Shown here: positions 13,318 to 44,815 of the stretch, piece after piece | How the letters are laid out: each line of letters begins with the position of its first letter | How positions within the stretch are numbered: the first letter of the stretch is position 1 | DNA from: a virus | Direction: 5' to 3' (one strand) | Length of the DNA stretch: 64,000 bases | Virus record (IMG/VR): IMGVR_UViG_3300025584_000449 | Span: 1-64,000 of that record | Program-made: the position numbers and the translations under genes | Notes under the pieces: model-generated | What the model was told of the DNA's origin: nothing | What the model saw: the letters and a program-made list of their open reading frames with translations, nothing else | Database searches by the model: none

Positions 13318-13911
13318 ATGTTTGATTTTAAAGGACTTACCAAATTTTTTGATAAACCAAAAAGAGTTTGGGCGTTCTTTTTAATGCTCGGAATGATCGC
13401 AGCATTTACACAGGGTAAAAAAGTAAACACTGTGTATGTTGTTGGAGACGAAGTAGTTACAGTAACAGACACACTTTATCAGACAAAGTGGAGAGTTAAG
13501 AAAGAGGTAGAAGTAAGAACTGACACCTTGGTAGTGTCTTATACTGATACTCTAACTCAAACAGTTCATGATTCTATTTTTGTAACAAACGTCGCAGAAA
13601 TCGACACAATATTAGGTGATGATGGAGAGCTTAATGTTAAGTATTATTATACTCCGTCTATGTTTGATATAACCTGGAACCCGTATCCTATAGAAGTTAG
13701 GTGTAAACAAATACTTGGTGGACAAGTAAGCTTAGTAGACCCAAGAGATAATTTCATTAAGTTTGGAATTGGTCTTGGTGCTGGACAAACCTGGGATAAT
13801 AAATTTAATTATTCTGGGCTAATTACAGGACGTATTGGATCTTATGGATCTTACCTGCAAGCAAGCAGGTACGACGGATACACATTGGGAGTGTTTTATG
13901 AATTTAAGTAA
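13318..13911 (+). CDS. Membrane-anchored protein, possible lysis/envelope factor
   Basis: 197 residues. One hydrophobic segment (about 17-32, VWAFFLMLGMIAAFT) is followed by a Thr/Val-rich stretch with repeated TDTL motifs (about 40-95) and a Gly/aromatic C-terminus with alternating beta pattern. The topology is an N-terminal anchor with an external domain, compatible with a spanin-like or envelope protein, but no family is recognised. It starts right after the previous stop, and the next gene starts inside its last 14 bases. The endolysin is two genes downstream. Confidence 0.6.
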   Translation: MFDFKGLTKFFDKPKRVWAFFLMLGMIAAFTQGKKVNTVYVVGDEVVTVTDTLYQTKWRVKKEVEVRTDTLVVSYTDTLTQTVHDSIFVTNVAEIDTILGDDGELNVKYYYTPSMFDITWNPYPIEVRCKQILGGQVSLVDPRDNFIKFGIGLGAGQTWDNKFNYSGLITGRIGSYGSYLQASRYDGYTLGVFYEFK

Positions 13912-14320
13912 ATTAGGATTTAAAAAAGAAGCTGATATATACCTTGGGCCAAAAGACCAAAAGGTACCTACTAAAGTTACCGCTGAAGGAATATTTGTAG
14001 GAGCTACTAAAGATTGGGAAGCAAAAGCTAAGGATCTGGATAGTATGTTAAAAAAGCATAAGTCTATTCAAAAAACAAGAGCAGCGTATGTAAAAAAATA
14101 TCCTAAGGATTATACTACAGTTTCTATGAAGTCAGAGAAAATTCCTAAAAAACCAATATTTTTTGGAAAGAAAAAATATAAAGCAAAAATGCAAGAATTA
14201 AATCAACATCCTAAAGTTTATTTACAAGTATTTAAAGCTGGTGGAAAAGAACAAATTCAATTTTATAATGATATAGCTAGAGGGCACAAAGAGAAAACCC
14301 TCGTAAAGAAAAAGAAATAG
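13898..14320 (+). CDS. Basic Lys-rich hypothetical protein
   Basis: 140 residues from the ATG at 13898 (MNLSKLGFKKEADIYLG), which overlaps the end of the previous gene; a start further upstream at 13835 would overlap it by 77 bases and is less likely. Very rich in lysine (KKYKAKMQE, KTLVKKKK), so it may bind nucleic acid or another virion component. No domain is recognised. Confidence 0.6.
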   Translation: MNLSKLGFKKEADIYLGPKDQKVPTKVTAEGIFVGATKDWEAKAKDLDSMLKKHKSIQKTRAAYVKKYPKDYTTVSMKSEKIPKKPIFFGKKKYKAKMQELNQHPKVYLQVFKAGGKEQIQFYNDIARGHKEKTLVKKKK

Positions 14321-14342: not shown

Positions 14343-14906
14343 ATGTTTAAATTCAGTTGGAAAAGATTTGTTAATTTCTTTAAGAAAGCTACTCATGTAG
14401 AGCTTAAAGATGTGCGAAAAGAACTACCTTGGCACGAGACTAGAAAATGGGCTAAAAGGTCATTGTCTCGTATAGACAAGATCATAGTTCATCAAGCTCT
14501 ATGTACTACATCTGCAAAGAGTATAAATAAGTATCATATTACACCAGCTGAAAATAATCACTTATCTAAAGATGGCGCTCCTCATATAGCATATCATTAT
14601 GCTATTGACTTTAATGGAGATGCTTTGTTTTGTAATTCGCATACCGATGTGACATGGCACTGTAAAGGTAAAAATACTTCTAGTCTCGGTATAGTAGTTT
14701 GTGGTGACTTTGACTATCCTGGGCAAACAAAGGTTAGTGAAGCTCCTAGTAAAAAACAAATGAAAAATTTAAAAAAATTATTAAACTATTTAAAGAAAGA
14801 ATTTAATCTGAAAGATCAGGATGTTTATGGCCATTGCGATTTTGGTAAACCAAGCTGTCCTGGTATTGCAATATACAAGCTTATTAATGAAAGGAAAGCT
14901 GTATGA
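14343..14906 (+). CDS. N-acetylmuramoyl-L-alanine amidase endolysin
   Basis: 187 residues, of the Amidase_2/PGRP family that includes T7 lysozyme. It cleaves the amide bond between MurNAc and L-alanine in peptidoglycan. Likely zinc ligands are H50 (IIVHQ), H164 (YGHCDF) and C172 (SCPG). K169, just before the cysteine, and Tyr 85 match the T7 catalytic pair. The N-terminal 40 residues are basic (FSWKRFVNFFKK) and replace a signal peptide, so release probably needs a holin. The stop overlaps the next start (ATGA). It is the main lysis enzyme candidate in the window. Confidence 0.92.
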   Translation: MFKFSWKRFVNFFKKATHVELKDVRKELPWHETRKWAKRSLSRIDKIIVHQALCTTSAKSINKYHITPAENNHLSKDGAPHIAYHYAIDFNGDALFCNSHTDVTWHCKGKNTSSLGIVVCGDFDYPGQTKVSEAPSKKQMKNLKKLLNYLKKEFNLKDQDVYGHCDFGKPSCPGIAIYKLINERKAV

Positions 14907-15994
14907 AATCTATTCTGTCTATGTCGCTTGATATAGTGGATGGAGTTGTAGAGGGAAATTTTGAAAAGATTTCTCAAATTACTGAGCCATTAAGTGATGA
15001 CGCTAAAACTGCTTACATTCCTAGCCTAGAAGAGCAAGGTCTTATGGCAGACTCATCCTGTGCTTTACGGTTGTTTCATCCACACTCTGGCGTATTAAAC
15101 AAATACGCTCATAATACTAAAGAAATAACAGAAATTAATGTAGCCTATTTATTAGACAGCATGGACTCTTTGCCAGAAGAAGTAGTAAAGACCGCAGCGG
15201 CTAACTTAATTTGTGCTTGTAATCATTATAAGCTAACTGTTCCTAAATCTTTAGAAAAATACGCATCATCAAAATATATTGATAACTTAATAGATATCAG
15301 AGATATTGATGAAGTAAGCTATCTAGATAAAATTGCTAGCAACGCCGATCAATTTTATGCACTAGAGCAAGAAAAAACATATCCACTAAATACTCAAGCT
15401 GATGTAGAAAAAGCTGCTGAGTATTTTGATGTTTATGAGGATAAGTTTCCTTTAGCTAAGAAGTATGAGTTTGCCTTAAATACTAAGAAAGCTGTTGATC
15501 GATTATCTATGGAATTAGATGACAGTTCAGCCATCAAATGTGCAAGTTTAGTATCAGATGTATTTAATGAGGACTTCTACAATCATGTCCAGGTACGTAA
15601 GGGCTATTTAAAAGATCACGAAGATGACCAAGAGCTAGTTGATGCTTACGATAGCCTGATTAAATCTGCTGATGAGCATGGTCCTACAAAGACTGCTTCT
15701 TTATTATATGATATTGATAAGAAAGCAAACTTACTTAGCAATTATGGGCACGGAATTGAAGATGCCGTTATTAGTACTTTAGCAGAAAAAAGTCCTGATC
15801 TATCTACTATAGACGGACAGACCATCTCGAAAACAGCATTATTTAAATTGGCTAGCACTAAAGATATTAATAAGAATTTAACTGACTTAGTTGGCACTGA
15901 AACCATCGCTGAATTAAAAGGTGACGAGGGACTAGCTGTTTTACAAAGTCTTCCCAAGCCTATTAGACAAGAAATACTAGAGCGTTTAGAGTAA
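14903..15994 (+). CDS. Hypothetical virion-region protein (363 aa)
   Basis: 363 residues, acidic and almost wholly alpha-helical by composition, with many Lys/Ala/Glu/Leu segments. There is no signal peptide, membrane segment or recognised motif. It overlaps the endolysin stop by ATGA and ends on the A of the next ATG (TAATG). Its place between lysis and portal genes suggests a structural or assembly protein, but that rests only on position. Confidence 0.6.
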   Translation: MKSILSMSLDIVDGVVEGNFEKISQITEPLSDDAKTAYIPSLEEQGLMADSSCALRLFHPHSGVLNKYAHNTKEITEINVAYLLDSMDSLPEEVVKTAAANLICACNHYKLTVPKSLEKYASSKYIDNLIDIRDIDEVSYLDKIASNADQFYALEQEKTYPLNTQADVEKAAEYFDVYEDKFPLAKKYEFALNTKKAVDRLSMELDDSSAIKCASLVSDVFNEDFYNHVQVRKGYLKDHEDDQELVDAYDSLIKSADEHGPTKTASLLYDIDKKANLLSNYGHGIEDAVISTLAEKSPDLSTIDGQTISKTALFKLASTKDINKNLTDLVGTETIAELKGDEGLAVLQSLPKPIRQEILERLE

Positions 15995-16272
15995 TGATTT
16001 TTGAATTAATTATTATTGCCGAACTGGGTGGACTATTATTTATAGGATCTAAGCTTTTAAAATCTATTAAAGGTATTAAGAGATCTGTAGTTATGTCTCC
16101 TCATGTAAATGGAAAGAGTTTTGACTCTTCTAGAATAGATGTGATGGACGTAGAAATGCCTACAGTTAATGTTGCTACACCTAGTGACTCTAATATAACT
16201 TCAGAGAGCTCTACCGTAGACACTTCTAGTACTACGGATAAACTAAGAAAGCTAAGAGGAAAACGTGGCTAA
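15994..16272 (+). CDS. Small N-terminally anchored membrane protein
   Basis: 92 residues. Residues 1-20 (MIFELIIIAELGGLLFIGSK) form a hydrophobic anchor, followed by a basic patch (KSIKGIKRSV) and a Ser/Thr-rich polar tail ending in KLRKLRGKRG. The positive-inside rule predicts a cytoplasmic tail. It overlaps the actin-like gene by 8 bases and could be a membrane partner or adaptor for that filament protein; this is inferred from position only. Confidence 0.6.
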   Translation: MIFELIIIAELGGLLFIGSKLLKSIKGIKRSVVMSPHVNGKSFDSSRIDVMDVEMPTVNVATPSDSNITSESSTVDTSSTTDKLRKLRGKRG

Positions 16273-17287
16273 AGGTCTTGATTGTGGAACTGGTAATTAT
16301 GTAGCATGCCTCTCTGATAAGGTGAAAACCCAGAGAAATGCTTTTATTACAATTGACCAGTCAATGAATACTAAGAAATCGTTAAAGCGATTAAATATTC
16401 CTTATGTAGAAATAAATAATAAATTACATGTTATAGGAAAAGCAGCTTTTGAGTACGCTCAAGTTTTTGGTAACGTAGCATTACGTAGACCAATGGCTGA
16501 TGGGCTTTTGAATCCTAAAGAGCGAGATGCACTTCCTGTACTTAGATCTATTATATATGAATTATTAGGTGAGCCAGAGACTCCAGGTGAGCGTGTTATA
16601 TACTGTGTTCCTGGTACCCCTATAGATAAAGACACTATGGTAGATTACCATGAATCAGTCCTCCAGAGCCTTATAGACGGCTTAGGTTACAGCTCACGAG
16701 CTATTAACGAGGCTGAGGCTCTAGCATATACAGGGTTGGTAGATAATAACTTAACTGGAATAGCAATCTCATTTGGCGCAGGTATGTGTAATGTAGGAAT
16801 CTTTTATGGTGGGATGACGGCTAAGGCTTTTAGTGTCAGTAGGGGTGGGGATTTTATTGATCACCACGTTGCTCTCGATACAGGTATTTCGCAAGCTAGA
16901 GCACAGTTTATTAAAGAAGAGTCCTCCACTGATATTGGTAATTCTAAGTTAGTGGTTGAAGAAGGAATCGCTAGCCTATCAGAGAAAGATCTTACAGTAG
17001 AGCAAAGGGCTATACAAACATACTATGGAGTATTAGTTAGATATCTATTAAGTAATATAGGTAAACAATTTGAGGCTGCAGAAGATATCCCAGCATTTAA
17101 AGATCCTGTTCCTATAGTTGTTGGTGGAGGAACTGCCATGACTAAAGGATTCTTAGACGTATTTAATAAAGAATTAGAAAGTTCAGATTTTCCAATTAAT
17201 ATTTCAGAAGTTAGGCTGGTAGAAGATCCATTTAATGCAGTAGCAAGAGGGTGTTTTGCTGATGCGCTACTAGAAGAGGAAGAATAA
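16265..17287 (+). CDS. Actin/ParM-like ATPase
   Basis: 340 residues of the actin/Hsp70/ParM superfamily. Visible ATP-binding elements are phosphate-1 GLDCGTGN (residues 4-11), connect motif NEAEALAY (about 153-160), phosphate-2 ISFGAGMCNVG (about 167-177) and adenosine motif VVGGGTAMTKG (about 282-292). Length fits ParM/AlfA-type segregation actins rather than Hsp70. The start is GTG at 16265 inside the previous gene. Phage actins can segregate genomes or position DNA in the cell. Its place among late structural genes is unusual for plasmid-type segregation, so a role in positioning virions or packaging is possible. The family call is strong, the role is inferred. Confidence 0.85.
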   Translation: MAKGLDCGTGNYVACLSDKVKTQRNAFITIDQSMNTKKSLKRLNIPYVEINNKLHVIGKAAFEYAQVFGNVALRRPMADGLLNPKERDALPVLRSIIYELLGEPETPGERVIYCVPGTPIDKDTMVDYHESVLQSLIDGLGYSSRAINEAEALAYTGLVDNNLTGIAISFGAGMCNVGIFYGGMTAKAFSVSRGGDFIDHHVALDTGISQARAQFIKEESSTDIGNSKLVVEEGIASLSEKDLTVEQRAIQTYYGVLVRYLLSNIGKQFEAAEDIPAFKDPVPIVVGGGTAMTKGFLDVFNKELESSDFPINISEVRLVEDPFNAVARGCFADALLEEEE

Positions 17288-17598
17288 TGCTATTAAAATT
17301 AGGATTTAAAAGTAAACAACAATTATCCAATAATGAAGATTCTTTCAAGAATGTTAAAGGTGTGATTGCAGGCGGATTATCCGGATTAACCACTGCTATA
17401 ATTACCCACCCATTAGAAACGATACAGGTAAATCAGCAAGTAGAAAAAAGTACAAAAAAAACTAAAAGTTTAAAAGCTTTATATAAAGGATTTCCTGTAA
17501 GAGCTGTAAGATCTGTTATAAGCATGGGTGTTGGGTTTGGTGCGTATAACGCATACATGAGAGCACTAGATAAGAAATGGACTAAAACTACACTATGA
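17287..17598 (+). CDS. Single mitochondrial-carrier-like repeat protein
   Basis: 103 residues. Residues about 25-95 fit one repeat of the mitochondrial carrier family (Mito_carr): a first helix with the family's GGxxG pattern (IAGGLSGLTTAIITHPLE), the P-x-[DE]-x-x-[KR] motif as PLETIQ, Gln pairs after it, and the second half YKGFPVRAVRSVISMGVGFG plus AYNAYMRAL, which follows the family's Y-x-G(6-7)R pattern closely. The matrix helix between them is shorter than usual. Normal carriers have three such repeats, so a single one would have to oligomerise. It is fused end to end with the actin-like gene and overlaps the next gene by four bases. Confidence 0.6.
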   Translation: MLLKLGFKSKQQLSNNEDSFKNVKGVIAGGLSGLTTAIITHPLETIQVNQQVEKSTKKTKSLKALYKGFPVRAVRSVISMGVGFGAYNAYMRALDKKWTKTTL

Positions 17599-18101
17599 AC
17601 CCAACATTAGTAGCTATTACAGCAGCTTTAGAAACATACGATAATGACTCTATTACTAGACTCTATCCTATGTTATCTGATAATGAAGTTAAAAAAATAC
17701 AAGTATTAAATGTATTGCAAACGTCAAGAGCTGCCTATGAGGATATGCATGTTTTTGAAAATGCTGTATTAGTTTTGAATGGCATAGATGCAGATGTTAC
17801 AAAGATTGAAGGCTGTGAGCCAAAGCATATTTGGAAAGCTTTAATTATTATAAAAAATATGCATCCTGATGTAGAACTATCACATGAAATTAAAATGTAT
17901 ATTAAATATATATTTAGTGATTATGGTTATAATTTTTATCCTCCTAATTTTAGTCTTGGGAAAGAGGACATGTTAAAAGATTTAGAATCAGCTGCGTTAG
18001 GTGCTCAGACAGGACCGGAACTAGATGATAATTCAGCATTCGACATTCAACTAACTAGATACTTATTAATAAAAGAGTACTTAACAAGGAGTAACATTTA
18101 A
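17595..18101 (+). CDS. Hypothetical helical protein upstream of portal
   Basis: 168 residues, acidic, alpha-helical by composition, with no recognised motif. It overlaps both neighbours (ATGA at its start, TAATG at its end) and lies directly before the portal gene, where phages often have a head-assembly or packaging protein. Function is not recognised. Confidence 0.55.
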   Translation: MNPTLVAITAALETYDNDSITRLYPMLSDNEVKKIQVLNVLQTSRAAYEDMHVFENAVLVLNGIDADVTKIEGCEPKHIWKALIIIKNMHPDVELSHEIKMYIKYIFSDYGYNFYPPNFSLGKEDMLKDLESAALGAQTGPELDDNSAFDIQLTRYLLIKEYLTRSNI

Positions 18102-19969
18102 TGGCTGTTACTAGACTAACAGAGGCTGGGCTTGGAAATGGGTTAAATGCTCGTAAGTATCCTAATCCCTTCTTTGATATTTCATCTACAATAATACCTA
18201 AAAATATTAAAACTCTTTTTAGTTACTGTCGTAATTTCTTCTATACTAATGGATTTCTACGAAACGTTATAACTAAACTTACAGAGTATCCAATTACAGA
18301 TGTATTATATGTGGGCGAGTTAGATGAGATTACGAAAAAGAAGTATGATTCTTATTTACATGAGTCTTTAAAGATTAAAAGTTTTTTAATCGAGGTTGGG
18401 TTAGACTATTTCACCTATGGTAACTCCTTTATTGCAACACAGTTTAACCCTAAAAGATTCTTAGCATGCCCAAACTGTAAAGAAAAACATCCAATTAATA
18501 AGGTAGAATATAAATTTAGAAGATATAACTTTGAGGGCCCTTGTCCTAAGTGTACAGATTATGTTACATTTAAAGTTGAAGACCAAACTATAATTGATAA
18601 ATCTAATCTAAAATTTGTTAGACTGTCTCCTGAAAATATAGATATAGAGTATAATCCTATTACAGGTGATACTCAATATTACTATTCTATGCCTAATAAA
18701 ATTAAGCAAAGAATAATGAAAGGTGATAAAAGTATATTAAAAAATATACCTATAACCTTTATTGAGTCTTTAAGCGAAAAAAAGAAAATCACATTTAATA
18801 GCGAGAATCTATACCACTTTAAACGACCTACACTAGCAGAAGAAGATATGGGTTGGGGAAAACCTTTGTTACTGCCTGCTCTAAAAGAAGTATATTATTT
18901 ACAGCTTTTAAAGAAGGGTAATGAGGCTATTGCCAATGAGCATATAGTTCCAAAGAAAAGCATCTTCCCTGCAAATACTACAGGCATCGACCCATTTACT
19001 CAAATGAGTCTTGGTAAGTGGCGTTCTAAAATTGAAGAGCAAGTTAATAAGTGGAAAACAGATCCTAATCATATAGGTATCTTTCCTATTCCTATAGGGT
19101 ATCAAGAGCTTGGCGGTAACGCTAAGATGTTAATGCTTACTCCTGAGATGAAGTTTATTGAAGAATCAATAATAAACTCTCTTGGAGTTCCTCTTGAATT
19201 TATTAAGGGCGGAACTACTTGGACAGGGTCTAGTATTTCATTAAGAATAGTTGAGAATCATTTCTTAACTTATAGAGAACTACTCTTAGACTTTGTTAAT
19301 CACTTTGTATTAAGTAAAGTAAGAACACATTTACAATACCCTGATGTAAAAATAAAATTTAAAAAGTTTAAAATGACTGACGACTCAGAAGCTAAACAGC
19401 TTGCTATAAATCTAAATCAAACTGGTAAGATTTCTGATAAGATGCTGCTTGATGAGTTTGGAATAGATGTTATAGAAAATGAGAAACAATTAAAGGCTAG
19501 TAAGAAAGAATACTATGCAGATTTAATTGAGACTAGAAAAGCAGAAGCTGAAGCAGAAGGTATTGCTACAGAAATTATGGCAAGGTATCAAGTACGTGCA
19601 CAGCATATGGCACAGCGTGAGGTACTTAGAGTTAAAACTGAACTATTCCAAGAAGAGTTAGCTCAAGAGCACTCACCTATCCCAGATGATCCTGTAAAGT
19701 TAATAGAAAAATTTGTACAACAGTTAGTACTTTATAATCTTGACGAGCAGGAAATGATGCTTGCACAAATGAAAAAGGATATGCCTATTACAGCGTCTAT
19801 GGTAGTTGAGCAGCTATTATTTATGAATAGACAATATGCAGAAGAGCCAGAAGAAGAGGAAGCAGAAACTCCTAAAAAAGAGGGCGCCCCTAAAAAGAAG
19901 GTAACTAAAAAGGATGAAGTTAAAGTAGGGCCAGATAAAAAGAAAGGACCTACAAAAGGATCAGCATGA
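18101..19969 (+). CDS. Portal protein with inserted zinc-binding module
   Basis: 622 residues. The portal forms the ring at the capsid vertex through which DNA is packed. The order fits large-phage portals: an N-terminal region, a stem/wing core, then FIKGGTTWTGSSISLRIVEN and a long helix with TYRELLLDFVNHFV, and a charged Lys/Glu/Pro tail (about 570-622). Residues C123, C126, C148 and C151 (CPNC and CPKC) form a four-cysteine zinc-ribbon-like insertion. The small ORF at 19966 overlaps its stop (ATGA). The portal call rests on the core pattern and context, not on a search. Confidence 0.75.
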   Translation: MAVTRLTEAGLGNGLNARKYPNPFFDISSTIIPKNIKTLFSYCRNFFYTNGFLRNVITKLTEYPITDVLYVGELDEITKKKYDSYLHESLKIKSFLIEVGLDYFTYGNSFIATQFNPKRFLACPNCKEKHPINKVEYKFRRYNFEGPCPKCTDYVTFKVEDQTIIDKSNLKFVRLSPENIDIEYNPITGDTQYYYSMPNKIKQRIMKGDKSILKNIPITFIESLSEKKKITFNSENLYHFKRPTLAEEDMGWGKPLLLPALKEVYYLQLLKKGNEAIANEHIVPKKSIFPANTTGIDPFTQMSLGKWRSKIEEQVNKWKTDPNHIGIFPIPIGYQELGGNAKMLMLTPEMKFIEESIINSLGVPLEFIKGGTTWTGSSISLRIVENHFLTYRELLLDFVNHFVLSKVRTHLQYPDVKIKFKKFKMTDDSEAKQLAINLNQTGKISDKMLLDEFGIDVIENEKQLKASKKEYYADLIETRKAEAEAEGIATEIMARYQVRAQHMAQREVLRVKTELFQEELAQEHSPIPDDPVKLIEKFVQQLVLYNLDEQEMMLAQMKKDMPITASMVVEQLLFMNRQYAEEPEEEEAETPKKEGAPKKKVTKKDEVKVGPDKKKGPTKGSA

Positions 19970-25237: not shown

Positions 25238-26836
25238 TTAAATTCTTCCAAAGATGTCCATCGCAATAGAATCTCCTGGAGAACCCTCATGTATATTCAT
25301 ATTAGAAACTTTCTCAATACGATCTGAGAACTCCTGTAATGACTTTGTATATGATGATCCCCATCCAGAGTCTATCAACACAGAAAAGATCTTAACCTTG
25401 TTAGCGACCTTCCATTCCTTAAGTTCCTTTAAGAAACTGTCTGAAACAGGAGCCTCACCATCAGTGACAAATACAATATCTGCTTTAGAGAAAGCAGAGT
25501 CATCACCAACTTTTTTCATACATTCTTTTAAAGGGGGTTCAAAATCTGTCCCGCCATTTATAAAGTATGTAGCCAAGTCAATAACCTTTTCAACATTATG
25601 CGGGTCACCTTTTAAGAATGTATTTGTATACAAACTTTGGTAACCGGACGCAAAATGAATACAATGAAAATCTCGCTTTTGGGTTCTTGCAATCTCAAGC
25701 ATAGCGAGAGCCACAGACTTCGACCATATTTCAGGATCTCCATTCATGGATCCAGATTCATCTATACAGATGATGATTGGGCCGCGCTGTTTTTTCTCTT
25801 TACCGCTATACTTATACTGTAAGAGTTTACCTTCTGCGAGATCTTTAAAGAATAACCATTTAAGTAATGGGTGTCCTAAACGCATTAATTCGGACGGCAG
25901 AGCTTTAGCTAAATCTCCGCCCATCTCGATTTCATATAATTCGTCTACTCCACGCTTTACTTTCTGGTGTTGTGCAGACATAGCCAAACGCTTAAAGCGG
26001 CCAGCGAGTTCTGCAATCATTTTAAGTTTAGGATCATTTCTTAATTTCTCCAGAAGTTGTAGCTTCTGATCATAAGACTTTCTCCCAAACGTTTCGTCAG
26101 AACCAAGACCCCAGTTACGTATAAGATCATCTACTTCACGAGCTTTGTGAATAGTATTACTTAGCGCTCTCGGCATATTAGTTTGCAGAGGCTTCTCGAC
26201 ATTTTCCTTCATGTCCTTCGCGGCCTCAGCTTGCTTTTTCTTTGCAGCTTCTAAACGTTTCTTAGCTTCTTCAAGAGTTAAAGCTTCCTGGGATTTTCCC
26301 TTCCCTTTTCCATCTTTACCCTCTTCACCTTCATCAGCCGCATCAGCAGCTCCTTGAGCCTCATCAACGGCGTCTTGCGCCTCCTGAGCCTCTTTAGCCG
26401 CATCCTCTGCCGCCTTCTTAGCTTGTTCAAATGCTTCCTTTAACTCTTTAATTAACTCTTTAACTTCGCTTCCTAATACTTCTAAACCTACTCCTGAAGT
26501 AATAGGGTCTAGCCTTGTCATTGTTCTAAGTTCTTTATACTTAGGGTTTTCTACAACAGACCTCATTACTTTGTTATTAAGTAAATAAGGCATTAACATT
26601 CTGGCTTCATCAACTAGTTCAGGAACGTATTTGTATAAAGAAGAATATAAATCCTGCTGTAGCGCCTCAATCTGTGGATAATCATCAACCATCTCTTCAC
26701 GAGTATGTTTTACATTTGCATTATGCTTTAAAGTGTCTTCAAAGTTTTGTTTATCAAATGCATCATGCTCAATTGAATGTTGAGATAATTTTAGATCATC
26801 GGACACAGATGTTTTCTTCTTATTAATTTTTCTCAT
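25238..26836 (-). CDS. ViaA-like VWA domain protein
   Basis: 532 residues. The C-terminal third is a von Willebrand A domain with a MIDAS metal site: DESGS at 359-363, a Gly-Gly-Thr-Asp (NGGTDFEPP) loop and VTDGEAP. The middle part has a long Ala/Glu/Lys coiled coil (about 120-225), and the part before the VWA (LAGRFKRLAMSAQHQKVKRG) matches the ViaA type. In bacteria ViaA partners with the MoxR-family ATPase RavA. Here a RavA-like gene lies 12 bases upstream in the same direction, so the pair probably acts together as a chaperone-like or metal-dependent remodelling complex. The retron RNA begins at its stop codon. Confidence 0.85.
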   Translation of the reverse strand: MRKINKKKTSVSDDLKLSQHSIEHDAFDKQNFEDTLKHNANVKHTREEMVDDYPQIEALQQDLYSSLYKYVPELVDEARMLMPYLLNNKVMRSVVENPKYKELRTMTRLDPITSGVGLEVLGSEVKELIKELKEAFEQAKKAAEDAAKEAQEAQDAVDEAQGAADAADEGEEGKDGKGKGKSQEALTLEEAKKRLEAAKKKQAEAAKDMKENVEKPLQTNMPRALSNTIHKAREVDDLIRNWGLGSDETFGRKSYDQKLQLLEKLRNDPKLKMIAELAGRFKRLAMSAQHQKVKRGVDELYEIEMGGDLAKALPSELMRLGHPLLKWLFFKDLAEGKLLQYKYSGKEKKQRGPIIICIDESGSMNGDPEIWSKSVALAMLEIARTQKRDFHCIHFASGYQSLYTNTFLKGDPHNVEKVIDLATYFINGGTDFEPPLKECMKKVGDDSAFSKADIVFVTDGEAPVSDSFLKELKEWKVANKVKIFSVLIDSGWGSSYTKSLQEFSDRIEKVSNMNIHEGSPGDSIAMDIFGRI

Positions 26837-43786: not shown

Positions 43787-44815
43787 TTATATATCGGTTG
43801 GGTTTCCTGAAAAAATTATTTTGTTCTCTTTAATATTGTTATGTTCTAATAAAAAGTCAAGCACAAAACCTTTAAACACCTCAAAAGTTTCAAATACTTG
43901 TAATCTATTGTAAGCATGTAACTTAAATGTTCCTACTAGAATTAAAATATCAATCTTGTTGAAGATCACATTGTTAGTTCCAGTAGCTGTTATTGCATAG
44001 GATAGTTTATCTAGATCTAGCCATCCTATATGTCTCTGTCTACCAGTAGTTACTCCGATCTCATTTCCTTCTATACGAATTTTATCGAAGATTTCATCGT
44101 CAAGACCTTGTTCTCTGAATTGTTTAAATCCTGAATAAGTCTCGTACACTTTAGCACATCCATAGATATCTCTAAGACTTTGAGGAGCTACTCCAGCCGT
44201 GAAGGCAGAGCAGGGCAATACACTGCTTGAGGTTACATATGGGTAATCTCCATGGTCTATGTCTAGCCAGAACCCTTGAGCGCCTTCGAATAATATATTG
44301 ATGTCTCGAAAGCCATCCAATTTATTTAATACTTTTACCGGATCCACAGTAAAGTCTTTTAGTAACGGGTGTGTCTCTGCTCTGATGTTTGTTCTATGCA
44401 TTTTTCCAGCATAGCACGGGCCGTTGCCTTGAAGCGTGACTCCAATAGAGCTATCTTTTTTATCTTGTTTTAGATGTTTATCTTCTATTACGTGAGCATT
44501 CTTTGCAATAAATAATCTATTGCGAATGTCCATATCAGAGGCATTTTCAACTTCTTCAAGCTCTTCTAAGAATTTCTCTGGATTGACTACGCAACCCGGC
44601 CCTATTAAAGATTTGGTTGATGCTTTTACTGGAAAGGGAATAGAATGTGTTTGTATCTTTTTTCCATCTATATATGATGTATGTCCTGCATTATGTCCGC
44701 CGTTGAAGCGAACTACCCAATCATAATTAAATGTTTTTTGGAGAGATGTGCTCACCTTCCCTTTCCCTTCGTCGCCCAGCTGTAACCCCACCACAATGTC
44801 TGAATTCAAATTCAT
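43787..44815 (-). CDS. purA: Adenylosuccinate synthetase PurA
   Basis: 342 residues; bacterial PurA is about 430, so this is a compact phage/archaeal-type form. Motifs: the GTP loop GDEGKGK (catalytic D15), FNGGHNAGHT, GPGCVV, QGNGPCYAGKMHRTNIRA, FEGAQGFWLDIDHGDYPYVTSS and VTTGRQRHIGWLD. It makes adenylosuccinate from IMP and aspartate using GTP. The catalytic Asp is kept; in the related phage enzyme PurZ (2-aminoadenine pathway) I recall it as replaced, which favours ordinary PurA. It starts inside the end of an HNH gene (ATGA). Confidence 0.9.
   Translation of the reverse strand: MNLNSDIVVGLQLGDEGKGKVSTSLQKTFNYDWVVRFNGGHNAGHTSYIDGKKIQTHSIPFPVKASTKSLIGPGCVVNPEKFLEELEEVENASDMDIRNRLFIAKNAHVIEDKHLKQDKKDSSIGVTLQGNGPCYAGKMHRTNIRAETHPLLKDFTVDPVKVLNKLDGFRDINILFEGAQGFWLDIDHGDYPYVTSSSVLPCSAFTAGVAPQSLRDIYGCAKVYETYSGFKQFREQGLDDEIFDKIRIEGNEIGVTTGRQRHIGWLDLDKLSYAITATGTNNVIFNKIDILILVGTFKLHAYNRLQVFETFEVFKGFVLDFLLEHNNIKENKIIFSGNPTDI

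Follow-up and report, generated by a model that had tools for sequence, protein, structure and literature searches.

We describe a short viral gene whose product is almost certainly a true homologue of a single repeat of the SLC25 mitochondrial carriers. It lies in a window of 64,000 nucleotides (the whole stretch of DNA analysed here, positions 1 to 64,000 of IMG/VR record IMGVR_UViG_3300025584_000449). To judge from the sequences, large uncultured viruses of bacteria encode a protein that amounts to one third of a transporter, and they do so beside a capsid gene. The assignment to one carrier repeat, and not to a whole carrier, follows from the profile matches, from the presence of one repeat in each related protein and from the single copy that a family profile finds in the 179,902-base record from which the window was taken, with no additional carrier repeats detected elsewhere in that record.

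Genomic context of the carrier-repeat gene

The original prediction had located a frame of 103 residues within an operon of virion genes; it was right about the boundaries of the frame, and the operon is of this kind by position, the gene lying among portal, o168 and amidase genes. The gene block comprises the following features:

14343 to 14906, plus strand: amidase/endolysin (PHROG lysis families, best E 1.3e-20)
14903 to 15994, plus strand: o363, a conserved gene belonging to this block, assigned by synteny
16265 to 17287, plus strand: actin-like protein of the volactin family (PF25216, E 3.9e-67), directly upstream of the carrier-repeat gene with a 1-base overlap
17287 to 17598, plus strand: single mitochondrial-carrier-like repeat protein, 103 aa, ATG to TGA (PF00153 and a family of 21), consisting of a leader (residues 1-8, MLLKLGFK), helix 1 with AGGLSG and PLET, a loop, YKG and helix 2
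17595 to 18101, plus strand: o168, a conserved protein overlapping the carrier-repeat gene by 4 bases (no Pfam family above cut-off)
18101 to 19969, plus strand: portal protein, 622 aa (phrog_16240 portal, E 7.3e-7)

The volactin, carrier-repeat, o168 and portal genes follow each other in this order as an overlapping operon. The first base of the carrier-repeat frame is also the final base of the stop codon before it, and its end overlaps the next start; the gene is thus part of one tightly packed gene block, and with an amidase/endolysin and a portal gene this neighbourhood is of the late or virion type. The portal is 33% identical to the annotated portal of Salmonella phage Arash. A virus of eukaryotes as the source of the window was considered and found unsupported, given the portal, the amidase and the fact that Vibrio and Salmonella phages have related portals.

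The arrangement recurs in the related phages described below, where 19 of the 21 family members are followed immediately by o168 and next by the portal gene, with o168 always in between. Conservation of o363, o168 and the portal extends far past the phages with a carrier repeat. In two phage types, the L012/L014 group and L009, the slot is devoid of the carrier-repeat gene, which is found elsewhere in the genome (L028, L050). These displaced copies bear on the reading of the protein as a holin-like lysis factor, a two-helix membrane protein making lesions that release the amidase. The amidase/endolysin three genes upstream, the two-helix architecture and the lack of gates would suit such a role, but in the L028 and L050 phages the carrier-repeat gene has moved far from the amidase, and the conserved carrier signature exceeds what a holin needs; we regard a holin as rather unlikely.

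Volactin lies directly upstream in 13 of the 19 members that occupy the slot, as would be expected if the carrier repeat served as a membrane anchor or partner for volactin and had no role in transport. This function appears quite improbable, as volactin is missing upstream of the remaining 6 of the 19 slot members, and the slot of other phages contains volactin but no carrier repeat. Volactin, a family with an archaeal name, is here part of a phage operon; volactin-type genes are present in many of the related phages, and similar genes occur in the huge uncultured phages LR745208 and LR756511.

Three further features of the window lie outside this block. At the start of a tail-type block, the frame at 593-1765 ends in a HINT/pretoxin-HINT-like self-processing domain (PF07591, E 4e-10). 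A VWA/CoxE-like protein (PF13519, PF05762) is encoded in this phage genome at 25238-26836, and 21 tRNA genes occupy the minus strand between 35971 and 58663, with an adenylosuccinate synthetase gene (43787-44815) among them.

Homology to a single carrier repeat

The match to one Mito_carr repeat that had been proposed from the letters of the sequence holds in an HMM search: PF00153 (Mito_carr, SLC25) scores 44 bits (E 1.9e-11; curated cut-off 22.3), well above background, and matches the protein in two stretches, one per half of the repeat. A profile built solely from 15 repeats of solved carriers gives the window protein 31.1 bits (8.9 for the best of 2000 shuffles of it), and a profile of its 20 other phage relatives gives 72.9 bits (13.7 for the best of 2000 shuffles). 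As a lone sequence, it is closest in the PDB to the ADP/ATP carrier 1okc (E 0.0012). Mito_carr was found in none of 14 control genomes and in none of ten other proteins of the related phages, several of them Gly-rich. The window protein has no match in PHROGs and, by tblastn, none among the INPHARED phages.

Because the carrier-repeat protein evolves fast, relatives were sought via the portal gene. A first scan yielded 22 contigs, in which the slot immediately preceding o168 and the portal encodes small proteins that likewise contain the GG..G, PLD/PLE and YKG motifs. PF00153 scored above its cut-off in 13 of 24 whole records, the two cultured distant phages among them (Vibrio D181 and Salmonella Arash) being negative (0/2). 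A second, alignment-based portal scan returned 157 related stretches; the best 80 of the 157 were kept, 20 of which had already been searched, and the remaining 60 gave PF00153 matches above cut-off in 8 of 40 and 0 of 20. Among these best 80, the matches fall to the closer portals, with an identity of at least 42%. Some related phage records are thus without a carrier repeat by PF00153, but many of the records are fragments, and a missing match does not prove absence.

After removal of near-identical copies on other contigs and of weak matches without the motifs (L153, L154, L155), the alignment comprised 21 distinct members from related uncultured phages. All 21 contain one repeat by motif count, which bears out the single repeat noted for the window protein and extends it to the whole family. 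PF00153 is matched independently by 18 of the 21 at E<=1e-3, a level reached by no other Pfam family, and none of the 21 has a PHROG match at E<=0.01. In the reverse direction, the 21-member profile retrieves from the PDB ten distinct SLC25 sequences (E 1.6e-19 to 5.5e-8), followed by histone H2B at 0.045, which is noise; a 10-member profile gives the same picture (best E 5.9e-15). An hhalign comparison of the family with seven repeats of solved carriers yields a probability of 98.1%.

A chance match was rejected on the strength of the reverse profile search, the 18 members and the shuffles. The same evidence weighs against convergence, whereby an unrelated two-helix phage protein would have come to resemble a carrier repeat by chance. 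Short, hydrophobic, Gly-rich helices might favour such a resemblance, three members miss the E 1e-3 level against PF00153 and Foldseek returns no match, but independent PF00153 matches in divergent members, a reverse search that returns SLC25 first, far lower scores of shuffles and the lack of Mito_carr matches in other Gly-rich proteins of these phages make convergence highly improbable.

When viral contigs were scanned with individual members, L050 was the sole new type to emerge. No relatives beyond the phage group were found in two genome-contig scans, the INPHARED phages and plasmids, and the family profile matched none of five named phages (0/5). The contig scans used short exact peptide patterns, which miss fast-evolving proteins, so that this lack of outside relatives is weak evidence. 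In Fusobacterium phage FNU1, the label 'mitochondrial carrier homolog 2' was discarded, the match being noise (E 8.5). Searches of open-access texts on mitochondrial carriers in connection with phage, jumbo phage, mimivirus or LncP brought up no phage carrier-repeat family among the entries listed.

Two of the related phages probably read TGA as tryptophan: in the portal genes of L075 (7001-8866) and L079 (7001-8872), in-frame TGAs fall at conserved Trp positions, which suggests this reading. The carrier-repeat genes of both phages likewise contain TGA. In genome G007, whose portal gene uses TGG, the carrier-repeat gene (L050, 7998-8297) nevertheless has one in-frame TGA; recoding, a sequence error or a broken gene are alternatives.

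Retained packing motifs and lost gates

The family retains residues by which carrier helices pack and has lost salt-bridge partners by which carriers close. The first Gly of GxxxG is present in 21 of 21 members, the signature Pro in 20, an acidic residue two positions after it also in 20 and the Gly of [YW]xG in 18; the packing motifs GxxxG and [YW]xG of SLC25 proteins are therefore found throughout most of the family. Of the glutamines stressed in the original prediction, the one nine residues after the Pro is kept in just 13 of 21 members, and P-x-[DE] and [YW]xG are better marks of the family. The hydropathy of both helices is within the range of carriers, a weak test of the membrane insertion that the original prediction expected. 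Three tandem repeats with six helices in a chain of about 300 residues, as in SLC25 proteins, are reduced to one repeat in 103 residues.

In carriers, the basic residue five positions after the Pro pairs with an acidic residue of the neighbouring repeat. This residue is present in 14 of 15 carrier repeats and in none of the 21 phage proteins, so that the matrix gate motif P-x-[DE]-x-x-[KR] is left with its acidic half. The cytoplasmic gate motif [FY][DE]xx[KR] is incomplete too: the window protein reads YNAYM, [KR] is found in 13 of 21 members, and the acidic residue of this even-helix motif in 2 of 21, as compared to 10 of the 12 carrier repeats with letters at that position, leaving 19 of 21 members without the acidic partner. 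As a homotrimer would need both partners in one chain, the canonical salt-bridge gates cannot form.

Two AlphaFold models are of low confidence (pLDDT 60, pTM 0.21-0.22), and Foldseek found no match for these low-confidence models. For the window protein (pLDDT 60, pTM 0.22) the low-confidence model has a helix at residues 3-53, a short helix at 62-66 and a helix at 69-102, which is the element order of a carrier repeat. From the residues kept and lost, the family looks like a carrier-fold membrane hairpin that might trimerise, yet lacks the canonical gates.

These losses count against a homotrimeric metabolite transporter, for example for nucleotides, that would serve phage replication by normal alternating access. 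Such a transporter would agree with the genuine SLC25 homology and with the finding that one member, searched as a single sequence, comes closest to a GTP/GDP carrier (E 4.5e-8). Each salt-bridge gate, though, is without one partner in nearly all members, and the gene lies among head genes and not metabolism genes; we consider this function rather improbable.

The N-terminal leader

A leader of the form hydrophobic-x-K-[LYV]-[AG] stands at the start of 16 of 20 members and is absent from 4; L050, whose start precedes the in-frame TGA, was left out of this count and reads FEKLA there. Shuffles gave a mean of 1.5 and at most 6, a figure that is too favourable because the pattern was widened to fit after the data had been seen. 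The 849 ORFs of G007 contain 8 copies of an extended version of the motif (200 shuffles: mean 1.1, most 6), and six of the eight are in five ORFs within 8 kb, beside the relocated carrier gene. The bearers in G007 include a protein 80% identical to the SNF2-type helicase of the matching G010 cassette, as well as a Gly-rich protein. In the slot protein of L022 (236 aa), the leader motif forms the junction between a Gly-rich segment and the carrier repeat. The FEKLA form was not found in the genome of the window itself, where the leader has the LGFK form, common to the ORF at 13835-14320. A leader common to unrelated proteins suggests sorting to one place.

In L047 (7956-15487) and L050 (7998-15927), a cassette encodes an SNF2-type helicase, a DUF5662 protein, a carrier repeat and Gly-rich proteins. 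Cassette proteins of different folds have an MDKAxxxFEKLA-like motif, which is N-terminal, or sometimes internal or C-terminal, and is a possible sorting signal. The looser pattern hydrophobic-x-[KR]-x-[AGS] is slightly enriched across all ORFs of the window's own genome (425, and 398 in shuffles). The o363 protein is rich in it (11, and 2.6 in shuffles), as are some other ORFs of the same genome and of G007; such copies may serve as multiple sites for a single partner or protease.

A possible mode of action

The protein probably functions in ejection or as a late membrane protein, and most likely acts in the inner membrane, either as the genome enters or late in infection. We put forward the overall mechanism, that of a late, membrane-inserting, homo-oligomeric carrier-fold protein without normal gates, tentatively and with somewhat less than even confidence. 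The carrier-repeat protein would be made late, along with the head genes, and its two helices would enter the inner membrane of the bacterium as a hairpin. As one repeat is a third of the carrier barrel, the hairpins may form a homo-oligomer, in the simplest case a trimer with three-fold symmetry in which the six-helix barrel is restored. Since all members lack the basic half of the matrix gate, and nearly all lack the acidic half of the cytoplasmic one, the barrel would not be a normal alternating-access exchanger, but perhaps an ungated or differently gated pore, or a membrane anchor.

The least certain step concerns the leader. Internal proteins of phage T4 bear a capsid-targeting sequence, and by analogy the leader probably sorts the carrier-repeat protein into the prohead, a destination that is a guess. 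A protein sorted in this way would enter the cell with the DNA and act in the inner membrane at genome entry.

Origin and significance

The available text of a 2026 study (PMC13385207) gives the triplication model of SLC25 carriers along with its known exceptions. In our tree, phage repeats are separated from carrier repeats with 66% support, the carrier repeats themselves not being told apart, and the phage group is not nested inside carrier repeat 1, 2 or 3. For 17 of 21 members the highest score comes from HMMs of carrier repeat 2, but the repeat 3 pieces used were shorter, and for this reason the result was not used for questions of origin. As no carrier repeat encloses the phage repeats in the tree, the family might preserve the single-repeat stage before triplication, a homotrimeric proto-carrier kept in viruses of bacteria; this is unlikely, and capture of a eukaryotic repeat by a phage, followed by erosion, fits as well or better.

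One repeat is the form from which the transporter family is thought to have begun, and a diverse and conserved phage family offers a living, expressible example of this missing form. Two questions become testable, namely, whether one repeat can assemble a working barrel and what an ungated barrel does. The family also offers a clue to what a conserved gene next to the portal does in a large group of uncultured phages.

Comparison with known systems

With T4 internal proteins, the family has in common a short N-terminal leader found on unrelated proteins, yet the leader of the phage family has a different sequence and is a putative targeting signal. Giant viruses of the Mimivirus type encode carriers, and their hosts are eukaryotes; the likeness lies in a virus-encoded carrier, the difference in viruses of eukaryotes as opposed to a single repeat in tailed phages. 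Carriers in 'a virus' are also mentioned in the available text of PMC13385207. Legionella LncP resembles the phage family as a carrier homologue encoded outside eukaryotes, but according to the available text of PMC3252375 it is a six-segment family member and a secreted bacterial protein, as opposed to one repeat in phages. Closest are the SLC25 proteins themselves, including ADP/ATP carriers, UCP1/UCP2 and yeast Ggc1, with which the phage proteins share the sequence profile, GxxxG, P-x-[DE], [YW]xG and, in the low-confidence model, the order of the helices. Unlike these carriers, which have three repeats, the phage protein has one, is without the [KR] five residues after the Pro and mostly without the [DE] of the even-helix motif, and is encoded by a phage, adjoining the portal gene.
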